Below are positions 7,921 to 18,004 of a stretch of DNA of 64,000 bases, piece after piece. The DNA lies in NCBI RefSeq assembly GCF_001279695.1, contig NZ_LGDD01000002.1, forward strand, positions 1 through 64,000, read 5' to 3'. The DNA is from Streptomyces sp. WM6378. GTDB taxonomy: Bacteria; Actinomycetota; Actinomycetes; Streptomycetales; Streptomycetaceae. Below the pieces are notes generated by a model that saw nothing but the letters and a program-made list of their open reading frames with translations, was not told the DNA's origin and searched no databases. Numbering within the stretch: position 1 is the first letter of the stretch; each line of letters starts with the position of its first letter. The position numbers and the translations under genes are program-made.

Positions 7921-8847
7921 AGCGTGAACGGTCCCGAGGGCACCGCCCCCCTCGCCCACCGGGTGCCCGACCTGGGCGCGATGGAGCTGCTGCTCGCCGT
8001 CGCCCGGCACGGCAGCCTGGGGCGGGCCGCCCGCGACCTCGGCATCACCCAGCCCGCCGCGAGCAGTCGCGTCCGCTCGATGGAGCGCCTCCTCGGCGTC
8101 GCCCTCGTCGACCGCTCCCCGCGCGGCTCCCGGCTCACCGCCGAGGGCGTCCTGGTGACGGACTGGGCGCGGCGGGTCGTGGAGGCGGCCGAGGCGTTCG
8201 ACGCGGGAGCGCAGGCGCTGCGCGGCCGCCGGGACTCGCGGCTGCGGATCGCCGCGAGCATGACGATCGCCGAGTACCTGCTGCCGGGCTGGCTGATCGC
8301 GCTGCGCGCCGAGCGCCCCGGCACCGCGGTCTCGCTCAGCGCCGGGAACTCGGCCGTGGTCGCCGAGCGGCTGCTCGCGGACGAGGCCGACCTCGGCTTC
8401 GTCGAAGGGCTCGGCGTGCCCGCGGGCCTGGACTCGGCGGTCATCGGCCACGACCGGCTCGTCGTGGTCGCGGCCCCCTCGCACCCGTGGGCCCGCCGGC
8501 GCCACCCGCTGCCGCCGGCGGAGCTGGCCGCGACCCCGCTCGTCCTGCGCGAACGCGGCTCGGGCACCCGCCAGGTCCTGGACGCGGCGCTCGCCGCCCA
8601 CGGCGGGCTCGCCGAGCCCCTCATCGAGCTCTCCTCCACCACCGCCGTGAAGGCGTCCGTCGTCAGCGGGGCCGGGCCCTCGGTGCTCAGCGAGCTCGCG
8701 CTCGGCGAGGAGCTGGCGGCCCGGCGCCTGGTGCAGATCCCGGTCGAGGGCGTACGGCTGCGGCGCGATCTGCGCGCGGTGTGGCGCCAGGGACCGCTGC
8801 CCGCGGGGCCCGCCCGCGACCTGCTCTCCCTGACCCGACCAACCTGA
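7918..8847 (+). CDS. LysR-family transcriptional regulator
   Basis: This 309-residue regulator has an N-terminal winged helix at about residues 20-80 (LLLAVARHGSLGRAARDLGI, then QPAASSRVRSMERLLGVALV). A LysR substrate-binding domain occupies about 105-300. It is divergently oriented from the TDT transporter gene, with a T-N11-A dyad overlapping its start, so transporter control is the likely role. The effector is unknown. The gene ends eight bases before the end of the convergent GNAT gene, with a small dyad (CCTGAC/GTCAGG) spanning both stops. Confidence 0.9.
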   Translation: MSVNGPEGTAPLAHRVPDLGAMELLLAVARHGSLGRAARDLGITQPAASSRVRSMERLLGVALVDRSPRGSRLTAEGVLVTDWARRVVEAAEAFDAGAQALRGRRDSRLRIAASMTIAEYLLPGWLIALRAERPGTAVSLSAGNSAVVAERLLADEADLGFVEGLGVPAGLDSAVIGHDRLVVVAAPSHPWARRRHPLPPAELAATPLVLRERGSGTRQVLDAALAAHGGLAEPLIELSSTTAVKASVVSGAGPSVLSELALGEELAARRLVQIPVEGVRLRRDLRAVWRQGPLPAGPARDLLSLTRPT

Positions 8848-8854
8848 CGAACCG

Positions 8855-9538
8855 TCAGGCAGGCACCAGGCGGCCGCTGTTGGCGCCTTGCCGGGTGCGG
8901 GCCAGGCGCTGCTCGATGGTGTGCCGCACCATGGGCCACTCCTCGTCGAGGACCGAGTAGAACGCCGTCCCGCGCACGAGTCCGTCCAGGCCCCGCGTGT
9001 GCACCCGGCGCACCCCCTCGCACACCGCGCCGAGCCGCTCGATGGCGGCCCGGGAGCGGGTGTTGCGGGCGTCGGCGCGCAGCGAGATGCGCCGCACTCG
9101 CCAGGTGTCGAAGGCGTGCTGGAACATCAGGAGCTTGGCCTCGGTGTTGATGCCGGTGCCCTGGGCGTGCGCGGAGAGCCAGGTGGCGCCGATCTCGGCC
9201 GCGTCCGGGACCGCGTCGGCGCCGCCGGTGAGCGGGCCGCGCGGCGCGGGCGGCCACACCACGGGCCCGTCCCAGTAGTCCAGTTCGCAGAACCGGGTCG
9301 AGCCGACGACCAGGCCGTCGGCGGCCCGTACGGTCGCGAACGCCAGGCTCAGCCCGGCCTCCTGGTCGGCCAGCGCGCTCTGGATGTAGGCGTGCGCCGC
9401 GTCGAGGCCGTGCGGCACGGGAGTGAAGGCGTACGAGGTCCGGTCGGCGGCCGCGGCGGCGGCCAGGGCCGGGGCGTGGGAGACGGTGAGGGGTTCGAGC
9501 CGTACGGAACGGCCCGACAGGATGACGGGTGCGGGCAC
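8855..9538 (-). CDS. GNAT-family N-acetyltransferase (RimJ/RimL type)
   Basis: This 227-residue acetyl-CoA-dependent acetyltransferase has strand beta1 at SGRSVRLEPLTVSHAPAL and the later family segment GTGINTEAKLLMFQHAFD. The RISLRADARNTRSRAAIERL stretch is characteristic of RimJ/RimL-like enzymes acting on protein N-termini or small amines. The GTG at 9538 is chosen because the family's first strand begins there and GAAGG precedes it. The ATG at 9760 would add about 74 residues of unrelated, low-complexity sequence. The substrate is not identifiable. Confidence 0.82.
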   Translation of the reverse strand: MPAPVILSGRSVRLEPLTVSHAPALAAAAAADRTSYAFTPVPHGLDAAHAYIQSALADQEAGLSLAFATVRAADGLVVGSTRFCELDYWDGPVVWPPAPRGPLTGGADAVPDAAEIGATWLSAHAQGTGINTEAKLLMFQHAFDTWRVRRISLRADARNTRSRAAIERLGAVCEGVRRVHTRGLDGLVRGTAFYSVLDEEWPMVRHTIEQRLARTRQGANSGRLVPA

Positions 9539-9850
9539 GGGGCCTTCGGTCCTTCGGGGCGCGGCGGAGCTTCTCCACCGATGGGTGGCGAGAGCGGGGA
9601 CACGGAGGAACACACGGTCAGGATGTTTCCGTGAAATGGCCAGGGAAGGAACGAGAGCGCGAAGAGGAACGAGCGGCCAGGTGAAGGCGAGGAGTCGCGG
9701 GGAATCCGCCTTGTGAGGGGCGGCGAGAGGAAGATACCCGGATGATCGCCCAATCGTCACCCCCTCGGAAGAGTGAGGCTCGCCGGGCGTGTCGCGCGGC
9801 CCCGGCCCGCACCGGGTCCGGGGCCGTCGCGACGGGCCTGAGCTGGGGCT
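9539..9850. other. Intergenic stretch with no gene seen
   Basis: These 312 bases separate the GNAT start from the end of the amidohydrolase gene. ORFs crossing it are not supported by codon bias or family resemblance. It should contain the GNAT promoter, which I could not locate. The terminator at 9791-9833 is its only clear element. Confidence 0.6.
9791..9833 (-). terminator. Terminator of the permease-amidohydrolase operon
   Basis: GTCGCG-CGGCCCCGG (9791-9805) pairs with CCGGGGCCG (9818-9826) and CGCGAC (9828-9833) with one bulged base, giving a 15-bp stem just past the amidohydrolase stop. Confidence 0.7.
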
Positions 9851-10537
9851 TCAGCGCGTGGACGCGGCCCGTACGAGCCCCTCGGTCACGCGGGTGTCCC
9901 GGCCCATCTCCGGATGCCACTGGACGCCCAGGACCCAGCCGGGGCCGGGCAGTTCGGCCGCCTCGACCGTGCCGTCCTCCGCGTGGGCCGAGGCGATGAG
10001 GCCGACGCCGAGCCGGTCCACGCACTGGTGGTGGTAGGTCGGCACGTCCGCGGCCTCGGGGACGAGCCCCGCGTAGAGCGTGCCCGGCACCGGCTTGACG
10101 GTGTGCTCGCCGAACACGCCCCGCCCGCCGGTGTGCCCCTCCAGGTGCTGGACCAGGGTGCCGCCGAGCGCGACGTTGAGGAGCTGGAGGCCCCGGCAGA
10201 TGCCGAGCAGGGGGGTGCCGGCGGCCAGCGCCGCGTCGATCAGGGCGAGCTCCCAGGCGTCCCGCTCGCGGGCGGGAGGTCCGGTACGGGGCGACGGCTC
10301 GGCCCCGTACCGGACCGGCTCCACGTCCGCCCCGCCCGCGATGACCAGGCCGTCCAGGCGCGCCACGACCTCGGCCGCGGCCGCCGGGCCGTCGTCGGGC
10401 GGCAGCATCGCGGCCAGTCCGCCGGCCGCCCGGACGAGGCGGGGGTATCCGGCGGGCAGCAGGGCGGCGGGCAGGTCCCACACGCCCCACTTGGCGGGCT
10501 CCAGGTACGTACTGATGCCGATGAGCGGCTTGGACAC
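9851..10537 (-). CDS. Class I glutamine amidotransferase-like gamma-glutamyl hydrolase (peptidase C26, PuuD-like)
   Basis: This 228-residue cytoplasmic enzyme belongs to the C26 family that cleaves gamma-glutamyl amide bonds, as PuuD does in putrescine breakdown. The nucleophile elbow LGICRGLQ near residues 109-116 carries the catalytic cysteine. VQWHPE near 209 supplies the histidine-glutamate pair. It lies 27 bases downstream of the ethanolamine-type permease gene in one operon and close to a gamma-glutamyl ligase operon. I infer that it releases glutamate from the final gamma-glutamyl intermediate. GTG start with GGAGA upstream. The operon ends in a strong hairpin. Confidence 0.88.
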   Translation of the reverse strand: MSKPLIGISTYLEPAKWGVWDLPAALLPAGYPRLVRAAGGLAAMLPPDDGPAAAAEVVARLDGLVIAGGADVEPVRYGAEPSPRTGPPARERDAWELALIDAALAAGTPLLGICRGLQLLNVALGGTLVQHLEGHTGGRGVFGEHTVKPVPGTLYAGLVPEAADVPTYHHQCVDRLGVGLIASAHAEDGTVEAAELPGPGWVLGVQWHPEMGRDTRVTEGLVRAASTR

Positions 10538-10564
10538 GGTGGCGGTCTCCGTTCGTTGAGCGGG

Positions 10565-12031
10565 TCAGTCCCGGGCGAGCTCGGCCTCGGCGGCGGCCAG
10601 GGCGGCGAACTCCTCCTCGGGCGCGTGGGCGACCAGACGGTGGCGACTGTAGAAGGCGAAGTAGGCCAGCGCGATCGCGTAGACGCCGAGCGCGATGAAG
10701 GCCGCGTCCTTGTCGACCAGGAACGTCGCGACGAGGGCGAACAGGGCGAGCACGAAGGCGACGGACGAGGTCAGGACGCCGCCGGGCGTGCGGTAGGGCC
10801 GATCGAGGCCCGGCTCGCGGCGGCGCAGGACCAGGTGCGAGAGCGCCATCAGGGCGTAGGAGATGGTGGCGCCGAACACCGCCACGTTCAGCATCCGGCC
10901 GCCGTTGCCGCTCCAGGCCGCCAGCGCGAAGCCGAGCGCGCCCGGGATGAGGAGGCCCAGGTACGGGGACTTGCGGCGGCTGGTCAGGGACAGGAAGCGG
11001 GGCAGGTAGCCGGCCCTCGACAGGGCGAAGAGCTGGCGCGAACCCGCGAAGATCAGCGAGAAGAACGACGCCACCAGGCCCGCGAGCCCCGCGTAGTTGA
11101 CGAAGCGGCTGAGAGCCGTGGGGCCGCCGTCGCCCTGGAGCGCCACGACCAGCGGGTTGCCCGCGTCCTTGATGGCGGCGGAGCCGTGCGCCCCGGTCGC
11201 CGCGAAGAAGGTCACCACGGCGAGCAGTACCAGGATCGACAGGGAGATGGCGAGCGCGCGCGGCATGGACCGCACCGGGTCCTTGGCCTCCTCGGCCGCC
11301 AGCGGTACCCCCTCGACGCCGAGGAAGAACCACATGCCGAACGGGAACGCGGCCCAGATGCCGAGCACGCCGAACGGCAGCCAGGAGTTGGAGCCGAGTG
11401 CGGAGGCGTCGACCGGGATGTCGTTGAGGCGGGACGCGTCGAAGTCGGTGAAGGCGCCGATGGCGAAGACCAGCAGGGCGGCGACCGCGATCGCGGTGAC
11501 CACGAGGCTGAAGCGCAGCGCCTCGCCCACGCCCCACAGGTGGATCCCGATGAAGATCGCGAAGCAGGCGAGGTAGACGGGCCAGCCCGAGGTGAGGCCG
11601 AACAGGCCGAGCGATTCGACGTAGTCGCCGATGAACAGCGAGATCGCGGCGGGCGCCAGGATGTACTCGATGAGGATCGCGGTGCCGGTCAGGAAGCCGC
11701 CCCAGGTGCCGAGCGCCCGGCGCGCGAAGCCGTAACCGCCGCCCGCGGTGGGCAGGATGGCCGACAGCTCGGCGAGCGAGAACACCAGACAGGCGTACAT
11801 GACGCCCATCAGGACGGTGGCGACGGCGAGACCGCCGAAGCCGCCCTTGGACAGACCGATGTTCCAGCCGGAGAAGTCGCCCGACACCACATAGGCGACG
11901 CCGAGCCCGGTGAGCAGCAGCCAGCCGGCGCTGCCGCGCCGCAGGGTGCGCCGGTGCAGGTAGTCGTCCTGGGCGTCCTTGGCGGACGCAGACGGTGCGG
12001 TGCGCAGATCGGTGTCGGTGCCCTCGGCCAT
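10565..12031 (-). CDS. APC-superfamily amine/ethanolamine permease
   Basis: This 488-residue membrane protein has about twelve hydrophobic segments. The first is WLLLTGLGVAYVVSGDFSGW, a sequence style typical of ethanolamine permeases of the APC family. ATG at 12031 is chosen because GGAG lies six to seven bases upstream. The longer frame would start with TTG at 12064 inside the operator region. It is the first gene of an operon with a gamma-glutamyl hydrolase. S. coelicolor is reported to lack a dedicated ethanolamine permease, so its presence beside a GlnA4-like gene is notable. Substrate assignment rests on family and context. Confidence 0.85.
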   Translation of the reverse strand: MAEGTDTDLRTAPSASAKDAQDDYLHRRTLRRGSAGWLLLTGLGVAYVVSGDFSGWNIGLSKGGFGGLAVATVLMGVMYACLVFSLAELSAILPTAGGGYGFARRALGTWGGFLTGTAILIEYILAPAAISLFIGDYVESLGLFGLTSGWPVYLACFAIFIGIHLWGVGEALRFSLVVTAIAVAALLVFAIGAFTDFDASRLNDIPVDASALGSNSWLPFGVLGIWAAFPFGMWFFLGVEGVPLAAEEAKDPVRSMPRALAISLSILVLLAVVTFFAATGAHGSAAIKDAGNPLVVALQGDGGPTALSRFVNYAGLAGLVASFFSLIFAGSRQLFALSRAGYLPRFLSLTSRRKSPYLGLLIPGALGFALAAWSGNGGRMLNVAVFGATISYALMALSHLVLRRREPGLDRPYRTPGGVLTSSVAFVLALFALVATFLVDKDAAFIALGVYAIALAYFAFYSRHRLVAHAPEEEFAALAAAEAELARD

Positions 12032-12065
12032 GAGCCGCTCCAGGTGATCGTCAAGGGAGATCAAG

Positions 12066-12088
12066 TCAATGGTTCGGCTGCATACCTT
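12066..12088. promoter_or_regulatory. Shared operator motif copy 1, upstream of the permease operon
   Basis: TCAATGGT, eight bases, ATACCTT. The same two blocks with identical spacing occur at 12989-13011. The blocks form an imperfect dyad (AATGGT against ACCTT), as expected for a GntR/FCD dimer. It lies about 35 bases upstream of the chosen permease ATG. Confidence 0.65.
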
Positions 12089-12214
12089 TGCTGGAGGGCA
12101 GGGTGGAGCGCAAGGGGTGTACGTAAAACCGCGGTTACGGAAATCGCCGGTGAACGCGGGGCCGGGCGGGTTCGCGTGGGTTCGGGCCGGGGTGCCTCGG
12201 CCGCCCCGGACCGC

Positions 12215-12967
12215 TCAGGTCAGGAAGCCGCGCAGCAGCGCCGCCGTGCCGCCGCAGTGCTCCCGCATCACCTCGCGCGCCCCGTCGGCATCCCCGTCGA
12301 GCACCGCCTCGACCAGTGCGGTGTGCTGGTGCTGCGAGTGCTCCAGGTTGCGGACCAGGAGCGGGATGCAGTCCAGGAGGTCGTTCACGGTGGCCCGCAC
12401 CGCCGCGTACTGGGCGGTGAGCGTGGGCGATCCGGAGAGCTCGGCCAGGGTGAGGTGGAGCAGGGTGTCCTGGCGGCGGTAGTCGGTGAGCTCGGCGTCG
12501 TGGGTCGCGGTGAGCGCGGCGCGCAGCCGCTCGGCGCCCTCGTCGGTCAGCCCGTGCGCCGCGCAGAGCCCGGCCGCGCCGACCTCCAGGACCTCCCGGA
12601 AGCGCAGGATGTCCTCGACGTCGACGGAGGCGATCCGGCGGCGCAGCTCGTCCTCGCCGCCCTCGGCGGCCCTGGGCAGCACGAACGTGCCGCCGTAGCG
12701 GCCGCGTCTGCTCTCCACCAGGCCCTGGTCCTGGAGGACCTTGAGGACTTCGCGCAGGGTGACCCGGCTGATCCCCATCCGCTCGGCCAACTCCCGCTCG
12801 GAGGGCAGCCGTTCACCGGGCGGCACAAGGCCCAGGCGCAGGAGCTGGAGAATCTGCTCCAGCGCTTCCTCGAAGCCGTTCCCGGCCCGTACGGTCCGCA
12901 GTACGGGGACGAGCGTGTCCGGTGTCCGGCCGTCCGGGCGGTCCGTCGAGTCGATCTTCTTCGCCAC
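12215..12967 (-). CDS. epuRI: GntR-family (FCD domain) repressor, EpuRI-like
   Basis: This 250-residue regulator has a GntR winged helix at about residues 32-95 (LVPPGERLPSERELAERMGI, then SRVTLREVLKVLQDQGLVE). An all-helical FCD effector domain spans about 110-245. The GTG at 12967 follows AAGGGG. The upstream TTG is less likely. It is divergent from the GlnA4-like operon and sits between it and the permease operon. In S. coelicolor the repressor at this position, EpuRI, controls glnA4 in response to ethanolamine. The shared 23-bp motif in front of both neighbouring transcription units is its probable binding site here. Confidence 0.85.
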   Translation of the reverse strand: MAKKIDSTDRPDGRTPDTLVPVLRTVRAGNGFEEALEQILQLLRLGLVPPGERLPSERELAERMGISRVTLREVLKVLQDQGLVESRRGRYGGTFVLPRAAEGGEDELRRRIASVDVEDILRFREVLEVGAAGLCAAHGLTDEGAERLRAALTATHDAELTDYRRQDTLLHLTLAELSGSPTLTAQYAAVRATVNDLLDCIPLLVRNLEHSQHQHTALVEAVLDGDADGAREVMREHCGGTAALLRGFLT

Positions 12968-12988
12968 GTCGCGGATTCCCCTTCCCAA

Positions 12989-13011
12989 TCAATGGTCTTA
13001 CCCCATACCTT
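12989..13011. promoter_or_regulatory. Shared operator motif copy 2, between the GntR gene and glnA4-like operon
   Basis: TCAATGGT, eight bases, ATACCTT, identical in blocks and spacing to 12066-12088. It also contains TGGTCTTACC, resembling a FadR-type TGGT-N3-ACC core. It lies in the divergent promoter region, so it could regulate both the repressor and the catabolic operon. Confidence 0.65.
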
Positions 13012-13044
13012 ATGGCTCTCGGCTGACCCAAGGAGGAGCTTCCC

Positions 13045-14409
13045 GTGGCAGACCGCACACCCCCGCTCTCGATCGAGGAGCTGCGCGCCCTCGTCGCGAG
13101 CGGTGAGATCGACACTGTCGTCCTCGCCTTCCCCGATATGCAAGGGCGACTGCAGGGCAAGCGCTTCGCGGCCGGGTTCTTCCTCGACGAGGTCCTGGCG
13201 CACGGCACCGAAGGCTGCAACTACCTGCTCGCCGTCGACACCGAGATGAACACCGTCGACGGCTACGCGATGTCGTCGTGGGAGCGCGGCTACGGCGACT
13301 TCGCCATGCACGCGGACCCGGCGACGCTGCGCCGCGTCCCGTGGAACGAGGGCACCGCGATGCTCATCGCCGACCTCGGCTGGAACGACGGCTCGCCGGT
13401 CGTCGCGGCCCCCCGCCAGATCCTGCGCCGCCAACTGGAGCGGCTCGCCGAGCTCGGCTACACCGCCCAGGTCGGCACCGAGCTCGAATTCATCGTGTTC
13501 AAGGACAGCTACGAGCAGGCCTGGGACGCCGGATACCAGGGCCTCACGCCGGCCAACCAGTACAACATCGACTACTCGGTGCTCGGCACCGGCCGCATCG
13601 AGCCGCTGCTCCGCCGCATCCGCAACGAGATGCAGGCTGCTGGCCTGACCGTCGAGTCGGCCAAGGGCGAGTGCAACCCCGGCCAGCACGAGATCGTCTT
13701 CCGCTACGACGAGGCCCTGGTCACCTGCGACCAGCACGCCATCTACAAGACGGGCGCCAAGGAGATCGCGGCCCAGGAGGGCGTCTCGCTCACCTTCATG
13801 GCCAAGTACGACCAGCGCGAGGGGAACTCCTGTCACATCCACCTCTCGCTCACCGACGAGGACGGCCGCAACGTGATGGCGGGCGACGGGCCCGACCACA
13901 TGTCGCCCGTGATGCGCCACTTCCTGGCCGGACAGCTCGCCGCGCTGCGCGACTTCTCCCTCCTGTACGCGCCGAACATCAACTCCTACAAGCGCTTCCA
14001 GCCGGGCTCCTTCGCGCCGACCGCCGTCGCCTGGGGGCACGACAACCGGACCTGCGCGCTGCGCGTCGTCGGCCACGGCGCGGGCACCCGCTTCGAGAAC
14101 CGGCTCCCGGGCGGCGACGTCAACCCGCACCTGGCCGTCGCCGGACTCGTCGCGGCCGGTCTGTACGGCATCGAGAACAAGCTGGAACTGCCCGAGGCAT
14201 GCACCTCGAACGCCTACGTCGGCGACTACGCCCATGTCCCCACCACCCTGCGCGAGGCCGCCGAGCTGTGGGAGAACAGTCCCATCGCCAAGGCCGCCTT
14301 CGGGGACGAAGTCGTCGCGCACTACCGCAACATGGCGCGGGTCGAGCTCGACGCGTTCGACGCCGCGGTGACCGACTGGGAGCTCCGCCGCTCCTTCGAA
14401 CGCCTGTGA
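13045..14409 (+). CDS. glnA4: Glutamine-synthetase-like gamma-glutamyl-amine ligase, GlnA4 type
   Basis: This 454-residue protein has the class I glutamine synthetase fold: beta-grasp N-terminal domain, then the catalytic domain with ELEFIVFKD, INSYKRFQPGSFAPT and HGAGTRFENRLPGGDVNPHL. Context places it with GlnA4 of S. coelicolor, which ligates glutamate to ethanolamine using ATP. GTG start with a strong GGAGGAG site upstream. It is the first gene of a three-gene operon with an aldehyde dehydrogenase and an SDR, all behind an FCD repressor. It is unlikely to be the ammonium-assimilating GlnA, judged by neighbours. The exact amine specificity is inferred. Confidence 0.88.
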   Translation: MADRTPPLSIEELRALVASGEIDTVVLAFPDMQGRLQGKRFAAGFFLDEVLAHGTEGCNYLLAVDTEMNTVDGYAMSSWERGYGDFAMHADPATLRRVPWNEGTAMLIADLGWNDGSPVVAAPRQILRRQLERLAELGYTAQVGTELEFIVFKDSYEQAWDAGYQGLTPANQYNIDYSVLGTGRIEPLLRRIRNEMQAAGLTVESAKGECNPGQHEIVFRYDEALVTCDQHAIYKTGAKEIAAQEGVSLTFMAKYDQREGNSCHIHLSLTDEDGRNVMAGDGPDHMSPVMRHFLAGQLAALRDFSLLYAPNINSYKRFQPGSFAPTAVAWGHDNRTCALRVVGHGAGTRFENRLPGGDVNPHLAVAGLVAAGLYGIENKLELPEACTSNAYVGDYAHVPTTLREAAELWENSPIAKAAFGDEVVAHYRNMARVELDAFDAAVTDWELRRSFERL

Positions 14410-14417
14410 GGAACGAC

Positions 14418-15788
14418 TTGTCCACCGCGTACGAGCTACAGGTACTCAACCCGGCCACCGAGGAAGTCATCGCGACCGTCCGGGGTGCCACCTCCGCCGA
14501 CGTCGACGCGGCGGTCGTGCGGGCCCGCTCCGCACAGCGAGGCTGGGCGGCCGCGGCCCCCGCCGACCGGGCCCGCCTGCTTCGCCGCTTCGCGGCCGTC
14601 GTCGACGAACACATCGAAGAACTCGCCCAGTTGGAGGTGCGCGAGGCCGGGCACACCCTCGGCAACGCCCGCTGGGAGGCGGGCAACGTCCGCGATCTGC
14701 TCGACTTCTCGGCCGGGGGAGTGGAGCGCCTGAGTGGCCGTCAGATCCCGGTCGCGGGCGGCCTCGACATCACCCTGCTCGAACCGCTCGGCGTGATCGG
14801 CGTCATCGCCCCCTGGAACTTCCCGATGCCGATCGCCGCCTGGGGCACCGCCCCCGCGCTCGCGGCCGGCAACGCGGTGATCCTCAAGCCCGCCGAGACG
14901 ACCCCGCTCACGGCCCTGCGGCTGGCCGAACTCGCCCTGGAGGCAGGGCTTCCCGAAGGCCTCTTCCAGGTGCTCCCGGGTGCGGGGGCGGTCGCGGGCG
15001 ACGCGCTCGTCGAGCACCCCGGCGTCGCGAAGATCGTCTTCACCGGGTCGACCCGGGTCGGCAAGCAGATCATGGCCAAGTGCGCGGACCGCGTGAAGCG
15101 GGTCACCCTCGAACTCGGCGGCAAGAGCCCCAACATCGTCTTCGCGGACGCCGACATCGAGGCAGCCGCCCTCGCCACCCCGATGTCCTTCCTCGACAAC
15201 TCCGGCCAGGACTGCTGCGCCCGCACCCGCATCCTGGTCCAGCGCACGGCGTACGACCGCTTCATGGAGCTGCTCGCCCCCGCGATCGAGGAGGTCGTGG
15301 TCGGCGACCCGGCCGACGAGAAGACGCAGATGGGCCCGCTGATCTCGCGCGTCCAGCTGGACCGCGTCCGCTCCTATGTCGCCGACGACGCACCCGGCCT
15401 GCGCGGCAGCGCGCCCGACGGCCCCGGGTTCTGGTTCCCGCCGACCGTCCTGACGGGCCTCGCCGCGGACGCGCCCGCCGCCGTCGAGGAGGTCTTCGGG
15501 CCGGTCGCCGTCGTGCTGCCCTTCGAGGACGAAGCGGACGCGGTGCGGCTCGCCAACGCCACCGAGTACGGGCTCTCCGGGTCGATCTGGACCCGGGACG
15601 TGGGCCGCGCGCTGCGCGTCTCGCGGGCCGTCGCGGCGGGCAACCTCTCCGTCAACTCCCATTCCAGCGTGCGCTATTCGACCCCGTTCGGCGGCTACAA
15701 ACAGTCCGGCCTCGGCCGCGAGCTCGGCCCCGACGCCCTCACCGCTTTCACCGAAACCAAGAACGTCTTCATCAGCACGGAGGCCTGA
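14418..15788 (+). CDS. NAD(P)-dependent aldehyde dehydrogenase of the gamma-glutamyl-amine pathway
   Basis: This 456-residue cytoplasmic dehydrogenase shows the family landmarks in order: GVIAPWNFP with the catalytic asparagine near residue 135, the nucleotide-binding FTGSTRVGKQI, the general base glutamate in LELGGKSPNIVF, and the catalytic cysteine in SGQDCCARTRI. EEVFGPVAVVLPF follows near the end. TTG at 14418 is preferred because GAGGA lies five bases upstream. GTG at 14406, overlapping the ligase stop, is the alternative. By analogy with PuuC it would oxidise a gamma-glutamyl aldehyde to the acid. Downstream SDR is six bases away. Confidence 0.87.
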   Translation: MSTAYELQVLNPATEEVIATVRGATSADVDAAVVRARSAQRGWAAAAPADRARLLRRFAAVVDEHIEELAQLEVREAGHTLGNARWEAGNVRDLLDFSAGGVERLSGRQIPVAGGLDITLLEPLGVIGVIAPWNFPMPIAAWGTAPALAAGNAVILKPAETTPLTALRLAELALEAGLPEGLFQVLPGAGAVAGDALVEHPGVAKIVFTGSTRVGKQIMAKCADRVKRVTLELGGKSPNIVFADADIEAAALATPMSFLDNSGQDCCARTRILVQRTAYDRFMELLAPAIEEVVVGDPADEKTQMGPLISRVQLDRVRSYVADDAPGLRGSAPDGPGFWFPPTVLTGLAADAPAAVEEVFGPVAVVLPFEDEADAVRLANATEYGLSGSIWTRDVGRALRVSRAVAAGNLSVNSHSSVRYSTPFGGYKQSGLGRELGPDALTAFTETKNVFISTEA

Positions 15789-15794
15789 GCACAC

Positions 15795-16577
15795 ATGACC
15801 GACGACATCATTTGCCGCCGCCTGGTCGGCCGCACCGCCGTCATCACCGGGGCCGGCAGCGGCATCGGCCTCGCCACCGCCAGGCGGCTCGCCGCCGAGG
15901 GCGCCAACGTGGTGTGCGGCGACATCGACGAGAGCGCCGGCAAGGCCGCCGCCGAAGCGGTCGGCGGCACCTTCGTCAAGGTCGACGTCACCGACCAGGA
16001 GCAGGTCGAGGCGCTCTTCAAGACGGCCTTCGACACCTACGGAAGCGTCGACATCGCGTTCAACAACGCGGGCATCTCGCCGCCCGACGACGACTCCATC
16101 CTCACCACAGGCCTCGACGCCTGGCGCCGGGTCCAGGAGGTCAACCTCACCTCCGTCTACCTGTGCTGCAAGGCCGCGCTGCCCTACATGCAGCGCCAGG
16201 GCCGGGGCTCCATCATCAACACCGCCTCGTTCGTGGCGATCATGGGGGCTGCGACCTCGCAGATCTCGTACACCGCGTCCAAGGGCGGCGTGCTCGCCAT
16301 GTCGCGCGAGCTCGGCGTGCAGTTCGCCCGTGAGGGCATCCGCGTCAACGCGCTCTGCCCGGGGCCGGTCAACACCCCGCTGCTCCAGGAGCTGTTCGCC
16401 AAGGACCCGGAGCGGGCCGCGCGCCGCCTGGTGCACATTCCGGCGGGCCGGTTCGCCGAGGCCGACGAGATCGCCGCCGCCGTCGCCTTCCTCGCCAGCG
16501 ACGACTCGTCCTTCATCAACGCCACCGACTTCCTGGTCGACGGCGGCATCGCCGGGGCGTACGTCACCCCCCTCTAA
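15795..16577 (+). CDS. Short-chain dehydrogenase/reductase of the gamma-glutamyl-amine operon
   Basis: This 260-residue classical SDR has the dinucleotide motif TGAGSGIG near residues 18-25, NNAG at about 88, and the active-site serine then YTASKGG near 155-161. The C-terminal substrate region ends in DGGIAGAYVTPL. It is the last gene of the glnA4-like operon. Ethanolamine, unlike diamines, carries an alcohol. I therefore infer that this enzyme oxidises the alcohol of gamma-glutamylethanolamide to the aldehyde used by the preceding dehydrogenase. That role replaces the amine oxidase PuuB of the putrescine route. This is a proposal, not an established function. Confidence 0.88.
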   Translation: MTDDIICRRLVGRTAVITGAGSGIGLATARRLAAEGANVVCGDIDESAGKAAAEAVGGTFVKVDVTDQEQVEALFKTAFDTYGSVDIAFNNAGISPPDDDSILTTGLDAWRRVQEVNLTSVYLCCKAALPYMQRQGRGSIINTASFVAIMGAATSQISYTASKGGVLAMSRELGVQFAREGIRVNALCPGPVNTPLLQELFAKDPERAARRLVHIPAGRFAEADEIAAAVAFLASDDSSFINATDFLVDGGIAGAYVTPL

Positions 16578-16620
16578 ATCCCGCCAACCCCCGTTGTTCA
16601 CCTGGGGGCCACGCACACGG

Positions 16621-16648
16621 CAGCCGGGCGTCGCACGACGCCCGGCTG
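16621..16648 (+). terminator. Terminator of the glnA4-like operon
   Basis: CAGCCGGGCGTCG (16621-16633) pairs perfectly with CGACGCCCGGCTG (16636-16648). It lies 44 bases after the SDR stop. The two central bases mean the physical loop is formed by opening inner pairs. Confidence 0.75.
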
Positions 16649-16697
16649 TGCTGTCTAACGTCCGCGATGATCTTCCCGACGACAGGAGTTCCTCAGC

Positions 16698-17981
16698 GTG
16701 TCCAAGTCCAGCACCGTCCGCCGACTGCCGGTCCTCGCCGCGGCGCTCTCCATAGCCGCCGGCGGCCTCGTCGCCGCCCAGCCCGCCGAGGCGCGGACGC
16801 CCCACTGCCCCCGACTGACCATCTCCGACGGGTGGTACGGGGACAACCAGGACCGGATCCAGGACCTGATCGACACCTACGGAAAGTGCGGAGCGGACGC
16901 GGGCCACGGCAAGAAGCCGGTCGCCGTCTTCGACTGGGACAACACCGTCGTCAAGAACGACGTCGGCGACGCCACGATGTACTGGCTGCTGCGCAACTCC
17001 AAGATCCAGCGCCCGGCGCGCGGCGACTGGCGCACCACCAGCCGCTATCTGACCGACGACGCGGCGAAGTCCCTCGCCGCCGCCTGCCCGGCGGGCACAT
17101 CCAAGACCCTCCCCACCGCCACCGACACCAAGTGCACCGACGAGATCCTCGCGGTGTACGGCGACGGCAAGACCGGCAAGGGCGCCGTCGCCTTCGCCGG
17201 GTACGACCGCCGCACCATCGAGCCCTCGTACGCCTGGCTCGCCCAGCTCCTGCACGGCTGGACCCCGGCCCAGGTCGAGTCCTTCGCGAGCGCGGCCCGC
17301 ACCGAGAACCTCAACGCCCCCGCCGACGCCGTACAGACGGTGGGCAGCAACACCAAGGCGACGGCCTGGGTGCGCTACTACGACCAGCAGCGCGACCTGA
17401 TCCGTACGCTGAAGAAGTCGGGCTTCGACGTCTGGATCACCTCGGCCTCGCCCGAGCCCGTCGTGGACGTGTGGGCACGTGGCGCGGGCGTCGACCCCGA
17501 CCACGCCATCGGCATCCGCTCCACCACCGACCACGGCCGCATCACGTCGCACCTCAAGGGCTGCGGCTCGGCCAGGGACGGCGACGACTCGGTGATCACC
17601 TACATCGACGGCAAGCGCTGCTGGATCAACCAGGAGATCTTCGGCGTGCGGGGCGCGGCGGCCGAGAAGGTGCAGCCCGCCGCCAGGCGCCAGGTGTTCG
17701 CGGCGGGCGACTCCGACACCGACGTGTCCTTCCTGCGGGACGCGACCGGCCTGCGGCTCGTCCTGAACCGCAACAAGAACGAGCTGATGTGCCGGGCGTA
17801 CGACGACAGCGACGGCCGCTGGATCGTGAACCCGATGTTCATCGAGCCCAAGGGCCAGAAGGCGGCGGCCTACCCCTGCGCGACCACCGGCTACACCGAC
17901 CACGACGGCACCCCGGCCCCCGTGCGACGTGCGGACGGCTCCGTGGTGCCGGATCAGCGGGACTCGGTGTACGGCGGCTGA
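16698..17981 (+). CDS. Secreted HAD-superfamily phosphatase
   Basis: This 427-residue protein begins with a Sec-type signal (charged start, hydrophobic core LPVLAAALSIAAGGLVAA, and AEA cleavage site near residue 32). The mature part has HAD motif I FDWDNTVVKND near residue 78, with both catalytic aspartates. Motif II is VWITSAS, and motif III/IV FAAGDSDTDVSFL lies near 335. This pattern fits phosphoserine-phosphatase-like HAD enzymes, here exported, probably scavenging phosphate from an unknown substrate. Four or more cysteines in the mature chain may form disulfides outside the cell. GTG start with AGGAG upstream. Monocistronic. Confidence 0.85.
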   Translation: MSKSSTVRRLPVLAAALSIAAGGLVAAQPAEARTPHCPRLTISDGWYGDNQDRIQDLIDTYGKCGADAGHGKKPVAVFDWDNTVVKNDVGDATMYWLLRNSKIQRPARGDWRTTSRYLTDDAAKSLAAACPAGTSKTLPTATDTKCTDEILAVYGDGKTGKGAVAFAGYDRRTIEPSYAWLAQLLHGWTPAQVESFASAARTENLNAPADAVQTVGSNTKATAWVRYYDQQRDLIRTLKKSGFDVWITSASPEPVVDVWARGAGVDPDHAIGIRSTTDHGRITSHLKGCGSARDGDDSVITYIDGKRCWINQEIFGVRGAAAEKVQPAARRQVFAAGDSDTDVSFLRDATGLRLVLNRNKNELMCRAYDDSDGRWIVNPMFIEPKGQKAAAYPCATTGYTDHDGTPAPVRRADGSVVPDQRDSVYGG

Positions 17982-18004
17982 ACCCGGGTTCTAGGGTATG
18001 GGCC

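Follow-up and report, generated by a model that had tools for sequence, protein, structure and literature searches.

The GlnA4-type ethanolamine cluster of Streptomyces sp. WM6378 and a probable operator for its repressor

Described routes and the WM6378 cluster

Among described systems the nearest to the locus considered here is the GlnA4 cluster reported from S. coelicolor, S. venezuelae, S. scabies, S. albus and S. pristinaespiralis (PMC6529630, mBio 2019), which brings together genes for a short-chain dehydrogenase/reductase (SDR), an aldehyde dehydrogenase, GlnA4, a regulator, a putative ethanolamine transporter and a 'glutamine amidotransferase', the transporter gene being absent from the S. 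coelicolor cluster. The reaction of S. coelicolor GlnA4 was demonstrated by high-performance liquid chromatography with mass spectrometry, the enzyme is reported to be specific for ethanolamine (Km 0.47 mM), glnA4 is repressed by EpuRI, and with the S. pristinaespiralis permease biomass on ethanolamine almost doubled (PMC6529630). Four steps ending in glycine and glutamate were already proposed there, the later ones as predictions, and two reviews (PMC9397018, PMC11356490) restate the route as predicted; among the matches listed in the open literature on gamma-glutamylglycine together with ethanolamine, taken from titles and abstract starts, no further work on the later enzymes is apparent. 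Here we describe a cluster of this type from Streptomyces sp. WM6378, in a window comprising the first 64,000 nucleotides of contig NZ_LGDD01000002.1 (assembly GCF_001279695.1; G+C 72%), together with a palindrome that, judging from the sequence, is probably the operator of its FCD-type repressor and would put both halves of the cluster under one switch.

Two better separated systems share part of the same logic. The Puu putrescine pathway of E. coli also proceeds by glutamylation, oxidation and hydrolysis, and the WM6378 hydrolase matches the PuuD-type model PRK11366.1 below its cut-off (73.8 vs 266 bits); however, in Puu the amine is oxidised by the oxidase PuuB, whereas in WM6378 the group oxidised would be an alcohol and the enzyme an SDR, and the product would be glycine and not gamma-aminobutyrate. 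The marine ethanolamine operon of Phaeobacter sp. MED193 and its relative in Chromohalobacter salexigens (PMC10132767) have in common with WM6378 the ligase, gamma-glutamylethanolamide dehydrogenase, aldehyde dehydrogenase and gamma-glutamylglycine amidohydrolase, but the Phaeobacter operon has a TRAP transporter and an RpiR regulator in place of an APC permease and an FCD regulator.

With the S. coelicolor and S. pristinaespiralis clusters (SCO1610-1615, SPRI_5940; PMC6529630) the resemblance extends to all six gene families and to the proposed route: an SDR, an aldehyde dehydrogenase, a regulator and an amidotransferase-type hydrolase accompany glnA4, the repressor gene has the position and orientation of sco1614/epuRI, and, like S. 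pristinaespiralis and S. venezuelae but unlike S. coelicolor, WM6378 has the permease. The closest named locus among the matches listed, that of S. violascens JCM 4424, has a GlnA4 100% identical. What a preliminary description of this DNA said of S. coelicolor, that its GlnA4 makes gamma-glutamylethanolamide under EpuRI repression and that it lacks the permease, agrees with PMC6529630. No other route suits the sequence as well as the complete one that it went on to propose, and the neighbourhood comparisons below strengthen this route, whose later steps are predicted and which had been proposed before. The pathway is already known, since PMC6529630 presented cluster, permease and route in 2019, and the operator is a modest new addition.

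The six genes have open reading frames and are tightly packed at 9851-16577 (Table 1), as judged from a list of open reading frames and from Pfam and NCBIfam domain searches, which agree on the identities first given to them. They form two back-to-back units, the minus-strand one holding regulator, permease and hydrolase and the plus-strand one ligase, dehydrogenase and SDR; 27 bp separate permease from hydrolase, and the gaps within the plus-strand unit are 8 bp and 6 bp. For the repressor, the program's reading frame begins at a TTG at 12988, and a GTG at 12967 is preceded by a stretch resembling a ribosome site by eye, GGGAAGGGG.

In the scheme that we favor, ethanolamine would enter through the EAT-family permease and be joined to glutamate by GlnA4 at the expense of ATP, giving gamma-glutamylethanolamide; the SDR, with NAD, would convert the alcohol to an aldehyde, the aldehyde dehydrogenase would form gamma-glutamylglycine from it, and the C26 hydrolase would release glutamate and glycine. 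The FCD repressor, acting on two copies of the palindrome, one in the epuRI-glnA4 gap and the other before the permease-hydrolase unit, would switch both halves when ethanolamine is present. We infer the SDR, dehydrogenase and hydrolase steps because the genes stay linked, keep their catalytic residues and share the sites, and the effector and operator are likewise predicted. In our judgment it is quite probable that the locus serves the inducible assimilation of ethanolamine, that it belongs to the GlnA4 type published for Streptomyces, and that it has this route and a two-operator switch.

A palindrome before each unit

A conserved block with the symmetric form AAWGGTNTG-N4-CANACCTTT (212 sites) lies upstream of glnA4 within two mismatches in 80/80 of the best named loci, a biased set made up of the closest relatives, and a like block precedes the permease. 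A broader view comes from an even draw of 150 Streptomyces genomes, in which neighbourhoods were compared in 136 fetched loci (L098-L233; L and G are our handles for loci and genomes). With the pattern NAAWGGT-N8-ATACCTTW, the glnA4 upstream region has a site with at most one mismatch in 134/136 loci, and at most two mismatches are found before the permease in all 78 permease-bearing loci. The pattern was derived from the glnA4 and permease blocks, so that these counts measure conservation; a freer test is offered by the losses and by the sites before the hydrolase. No count is one of independent events, as the loci share ancestry. In loci with a repressor but no permease, the hydrolase itself carries a site within two mismatches in 42/54 cases and within three in 51/54, whereas behind the permease none of 78 has one within three. 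Single-base shuffles of the glnA4 upstream regions gave 0/2720 at two mismatches or fewer and five at three. In the WM6378 genome the exact core occurs twice, both times in the cluster, against 0.017 matches expected from base composition alone.

A regulon reaching outside the cluster was considered and set aside: no genomic site has one mismatch, and the 20 with two are at the level of chance because a backwards control pattern gives 22 matches in all.

Could the palindrome instead belong to a different regulator, or serve glnA4 and the permease as their core promoter? It includes TACCTT, fitting the TAnnnT pattern of a -10 box, and in the permease-bearing loci listed its first base lies 53-97 bp upstream of the glnA4 start. 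Its two-fold symmetry and its presence at both heads argue otherwise, and so does its fate where the repressor is lost or moved. The only glnA4 loci with no site, L207 and L214, are in the two cluster-bearing genomes (G070 and G116) in which a whole-genome search, made in 17 genomes (that of L202, a locus cut by a contig end, not among them), gave no repressor orthologue, the best matches being 37% and 35%. In L173 (G075) the repressor is missing from the locus and the site is kept; an 83% orthologue stands elsewhere in this genome, between two one-mismatch copies of the site. Taken together, a promoter or another regulator's site is unlikely as the explanation, and the palindrome is better read as the predicted operator of the FCD repressor. 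The displaced repressor gene of G075 (83-84%; L237, 9028-9886) stands at an unrelated place near LysR and DUF2510 genes, with the two one-mismatch sites flanking it.

In the accessible part of PMC6529630 the operator is not described, the words 'operator' and 'motif' occurring 0 times, and the main text of PMC8998196, to the extent available, names no operator, palindrome, inverted repeat or consensus, using 'motif' once, about GlnR. Electrophoretic mobility shift assays in the latter study showed S. coelicolor EpuRI bound to eight promoters, including those of glnA4 and of its own gene (PMC8998196).

Several considerations count against the operator assignment. The pattern was drawn from these same loci, so that the two matches in the window are there by construction; three loci with the repressor and no permease (L100, L102 and L198) have no site before the hydrolase, and nine more reach it only with three mismatches, a level attained by 5/2720 shuffles. 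The joint loss of repressor and site counts as a single event because L207 and L214 are sisters. The eight promoters bound in the published assays (PMC8998196) also contrast with the two strong sites in this genome, a disagreement that may reflect weaker sites, non-specific binding or a difference between species.

Spread within and beyond Streptomyces

A glnA4 orthologue is present in 139 of the 150 drawn genomes, counting the 136 fetched loci, WM6378 itself and two in pieces (G125, G119), and the cluster is thus ordinary for the genus. The hydrolase is linked in 134/136 loci, the remaining two being cut by a contig end or having unreadable sequence, and the ligase-dehydrogenase-SDR series is linked in 134/136, L100 and L158 being cut downstream by short contigs. 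All six genes are found in 76 loci and only the permease is missing in 53; among the seven that differ otherwise, L207 and L214 have neither permease nor repressor, L173 lacks the repressor only, and L100, L158, L202 and L228 are affected by contig ends or unreadable stretches, for which reason the hydrolase not found in L228 is not read as a loss.

The permease is the variable member. The survey of its co-occurrence and that of the hydrolase with glnA4, which the preliminary description had called for, gives it in 78/136 loci (48 of the best 80 named), and genome by genome its orthologues (76-90% identity) are found in 80/150, or 80/139 of those with glnA4, only ever inside the cluster, the next best-scoring match in the draw being 32% identical. 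None of the 11 genomes without glnA4 has an orthologue, keeping in mind that three of these are only 78-82% complete. On a FastTree tree of GlnA4, dehydrogenase and SDR (134 rows: the window and 133 of the 136 loci, three being too gappy to include), presence and absence of the permease require 13 changes, 10 of them forced by well-supported branches and with gain and loss not distinguishable, against a shuffled mean of 43.4.

Outside the genus, 20 loci were hand-picked from the ranked list of a class-wide search of 158 genomes. One, at 55% GlnA4 identity, has none of the partners. The other 19 (62-71%) all have ligase, dehydrogenase and SDR in order, some with the hydrolase between the first two; the hydrolase is near in 16/19, being downstream, between or upstream, with a relative of the regulator near in 13/19 and of the permease in 6/19. 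Two of the three loci with no C26 match are from one small-genome family, f19 (G193, 1.4 Mb; G229, 2.2 Mb), and the third is L251. In the f19 loci L250 and L258 the SDR gene meets a class I amidotransferase gene end to end, the latter running convergently on the opposite strand, which makes this link weaker; the neighbour of the ligase is an APC permease from a different subfamily (best model TIGR00907, below cut-off). The same gene set would also occur in mycobacteria, where the single paper listed for four locus tags deals, by its listing, with a different subject. Within 400 bp upstream of glnA4 only L246 and L254 of the 19 reach two mismatches to the operator pattern, and the site is therefore claimed for Streptomyces only.

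As the operator is mostly found before the hydrolase where the permease is missing, uptake appears to be optional and the four enzymes one switchable unit. Our fuller view, held with slightly less assurance than the assignment of the cluster itself but still likely, is of a closed two-site regulon with the palindrome heading each half, and of a class-wide modular route in which ligase, dehydrogenase and SDR are fixed while the position of the hydrolase, the permease and the regulator are exchanged, one small-genome lineage perhaps having other families in the hydrolase and permease slots.

The enzymes, their substrates and the surroundings

Residues that we take to be catalytic are kept throughout: C114, H208 and E210 of the hydrolase and E232 and C266 of the dehydrogenase in 134/134 relatives, and S145 (134/134), Y159 and K163 (each 133/133) of the SDR. 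The SDR also has aspartates after the second strand, D43 (131/132) and D45 (132/132), which by a rule of thumb presumably fit use of NAD; its top sequence match among solved structures is 4wec (E 5e-121). In GlnA4, F323, E146, E148, E209, E216, H264 and R353 are each found in 136/136 loci, so that the metal, glutamate and ATP residues are kept while the flap glutamate of glutamine synthetase is missing, F323 standing at its position and corresponding to F331 of PMC6529630 (residues were matched by motif and numbering offset to those in section 12 of that paper). The top structure matches of the ligase are 11zs and then 5dm3, that to 4hpp, which is PauA7 (PMC6529630), being far weaker (E 1e-18).

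How firmly do these features point to ethanolamine? The ligase-oxidation-hydrolysis logic could be the same with another amino alcohol or small amine as the main substrate, since permease and ligase are tied to ethanolamine by models and neighbourhood alone, and the best scores of the dehydrogenase are to aminobutyraldehyde and betaine-aldehyde models, none of them reaching its cut-off. Yet the permease passes the NCBIfam equivalog 'ethanolamine permease' (TIGR00908; 481.6 bits, curated cut-off 381.75), GlnA4 falls far short on the gamma-glutamylputrescine synthetase model (NF045547; 206.5 bits, cut-off 650), and the S. coelicolor enzyme has the specificity noted above (PMC6529630); another main substrate is accordingly improbable. 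Still less probable is that only ligase and permease act on ethanolamine, with SDR and hydrolase having substrates of their own and standing beside them for historical reasons. The roles of these two are predictions in the papers cited, the SDR has a fatty-acid-type NCBIfam name and the hydrolase is not near in 3/19 distant loci; but the SDR is in order in 19/19 of these, the hydrolase is linked in 16/19 although rearranged, and it carries an operator within two mismatches in 42/54 loci where no permease precedes it, against 0/78 behind the permease. Ethanolamine as substrate of the whole route is the preferred reading.

Some findings pull the other way. The SDR passes two generic models, 3-oxoacyl-ACP (acyl carrier protein) reductase NF004713 and glucose 1-dehydrogenase NF005559, neither the C26 enzyme nor the dehydrogenase is given a specific name by any NCBIfam model, and activity of SDR, dehydrogenase and hydrolase on gamma-glutamyl intermediates is a prediction in the literature (PMC6529630, PMC9397018, PMC11356490). 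The EutBC ammonia-lyase route has the same substrate but differs in its lyase, which the route here would not need, as first proposed; the WM6378 genome gave 0 matches to the lyase subunit EutB (only E. coli was positive among 14 control genomes), a negative that covers EutB alone, EutC not having been searched.

The genes had first been placed between two strong terminators. The genes are real and correctly placed, but a terminator consensus scan of 8500-18000 gave 0 sites and the flanking hairpins, though strong, have no T-run, and they are kept in Table 1 as features only. After the SDR comes a gene for a HAD-type phosphatase-like protein (16698-17981, plus strand) with a signal-like start by eye, in contrast to orf1 of PMC6529630, which encodes a membrane protein; relatives above 55% identity occur in only 25/136 drawn loci, so that it is not a fixed part of the cluster.

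Table 1. Predicted genes, operators and flanking hairpins of the WM6378 cluster (window coordinates)
Feature	Position	Strand	Basis or detail
GC-rich hairpin 3' of hydrolase, without T-run	9790..9840		-42.0 kcal/mol
C26 gamma-glutamyl hydrolase, predicted gamma-glutamylglycine hydrolase	9851..10537	-	Peptidase_C26 PF07722, 220 bits
APC-type ethanolamine permease (EAT family)	10565..12031	-	AA_permease_2; TIGR00908 above cut-off
Predicted operator 1, head of permease-hydrolase unit	12067..12089 (core 12068-12088)		CAATGGTTCGGCTGCATACCTTT
FCD-type GntR repressor, EpuRI-like	12215..12967	-	PF07729 (FCD) and PF00392 (GntR)
Predicted operator 2, between epuRI and glnA4	12990..13012 (core 12991-13011)		CAATGGTCTTACCCCATACCTTA
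GlnA4-type gamma-glutamylethanolamide synthetase	13045..14409	+	Gln-synt_C PF00120, 343 bits
Aldehyde dehydrogenase, predicted to form gamma-glutamylglycine	14418..15788	+	Aldedh PF00171, 538 bits
SDR, predicted NAD-dependent gamma-glutamylethanolamide dehydrogenase	15795..16577	+	adh_short_C2 PF13561, 227 bits
GC-rich hairpin 3' of SDR, without T-run	16605..16665		-37.4 kcal/mol

Further GlnA4 copies occur in the draw. In eight of the 150 genomes a paralogue with 57-60% identity (L086-L093) lies beside genes for an IucA/IucC-type siderophore synthetase and a lysine/ornithine monooxygenase, 8/8 loci, and may be a gamma-glutamyl ligase that siderophore synthesis has recruited; nothing pertinent to a siderophore-linked glutamine synthetase-like enzyme is among the literature matches listed, by what they display. 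These siderophore loci were rejected as second ethanolamine clusters, no dehydrogenase, hydrolase, permease or regulator partner being found there and just one 30% SDR match (L086). A 68% copy in G087 (L094/L239) has no other cluster gene matched in 18.5 kb and no operator.

The value of the present comparison lies in confirmation at scale and in a concrete, testable operator that would put permease and hydrolase under the switch of glnA4. If the route is true, it would allow soil bacteria to gain nitrogen and carbon from a common breakdown product of membrane lipids with neither lyase nor microcompartment.

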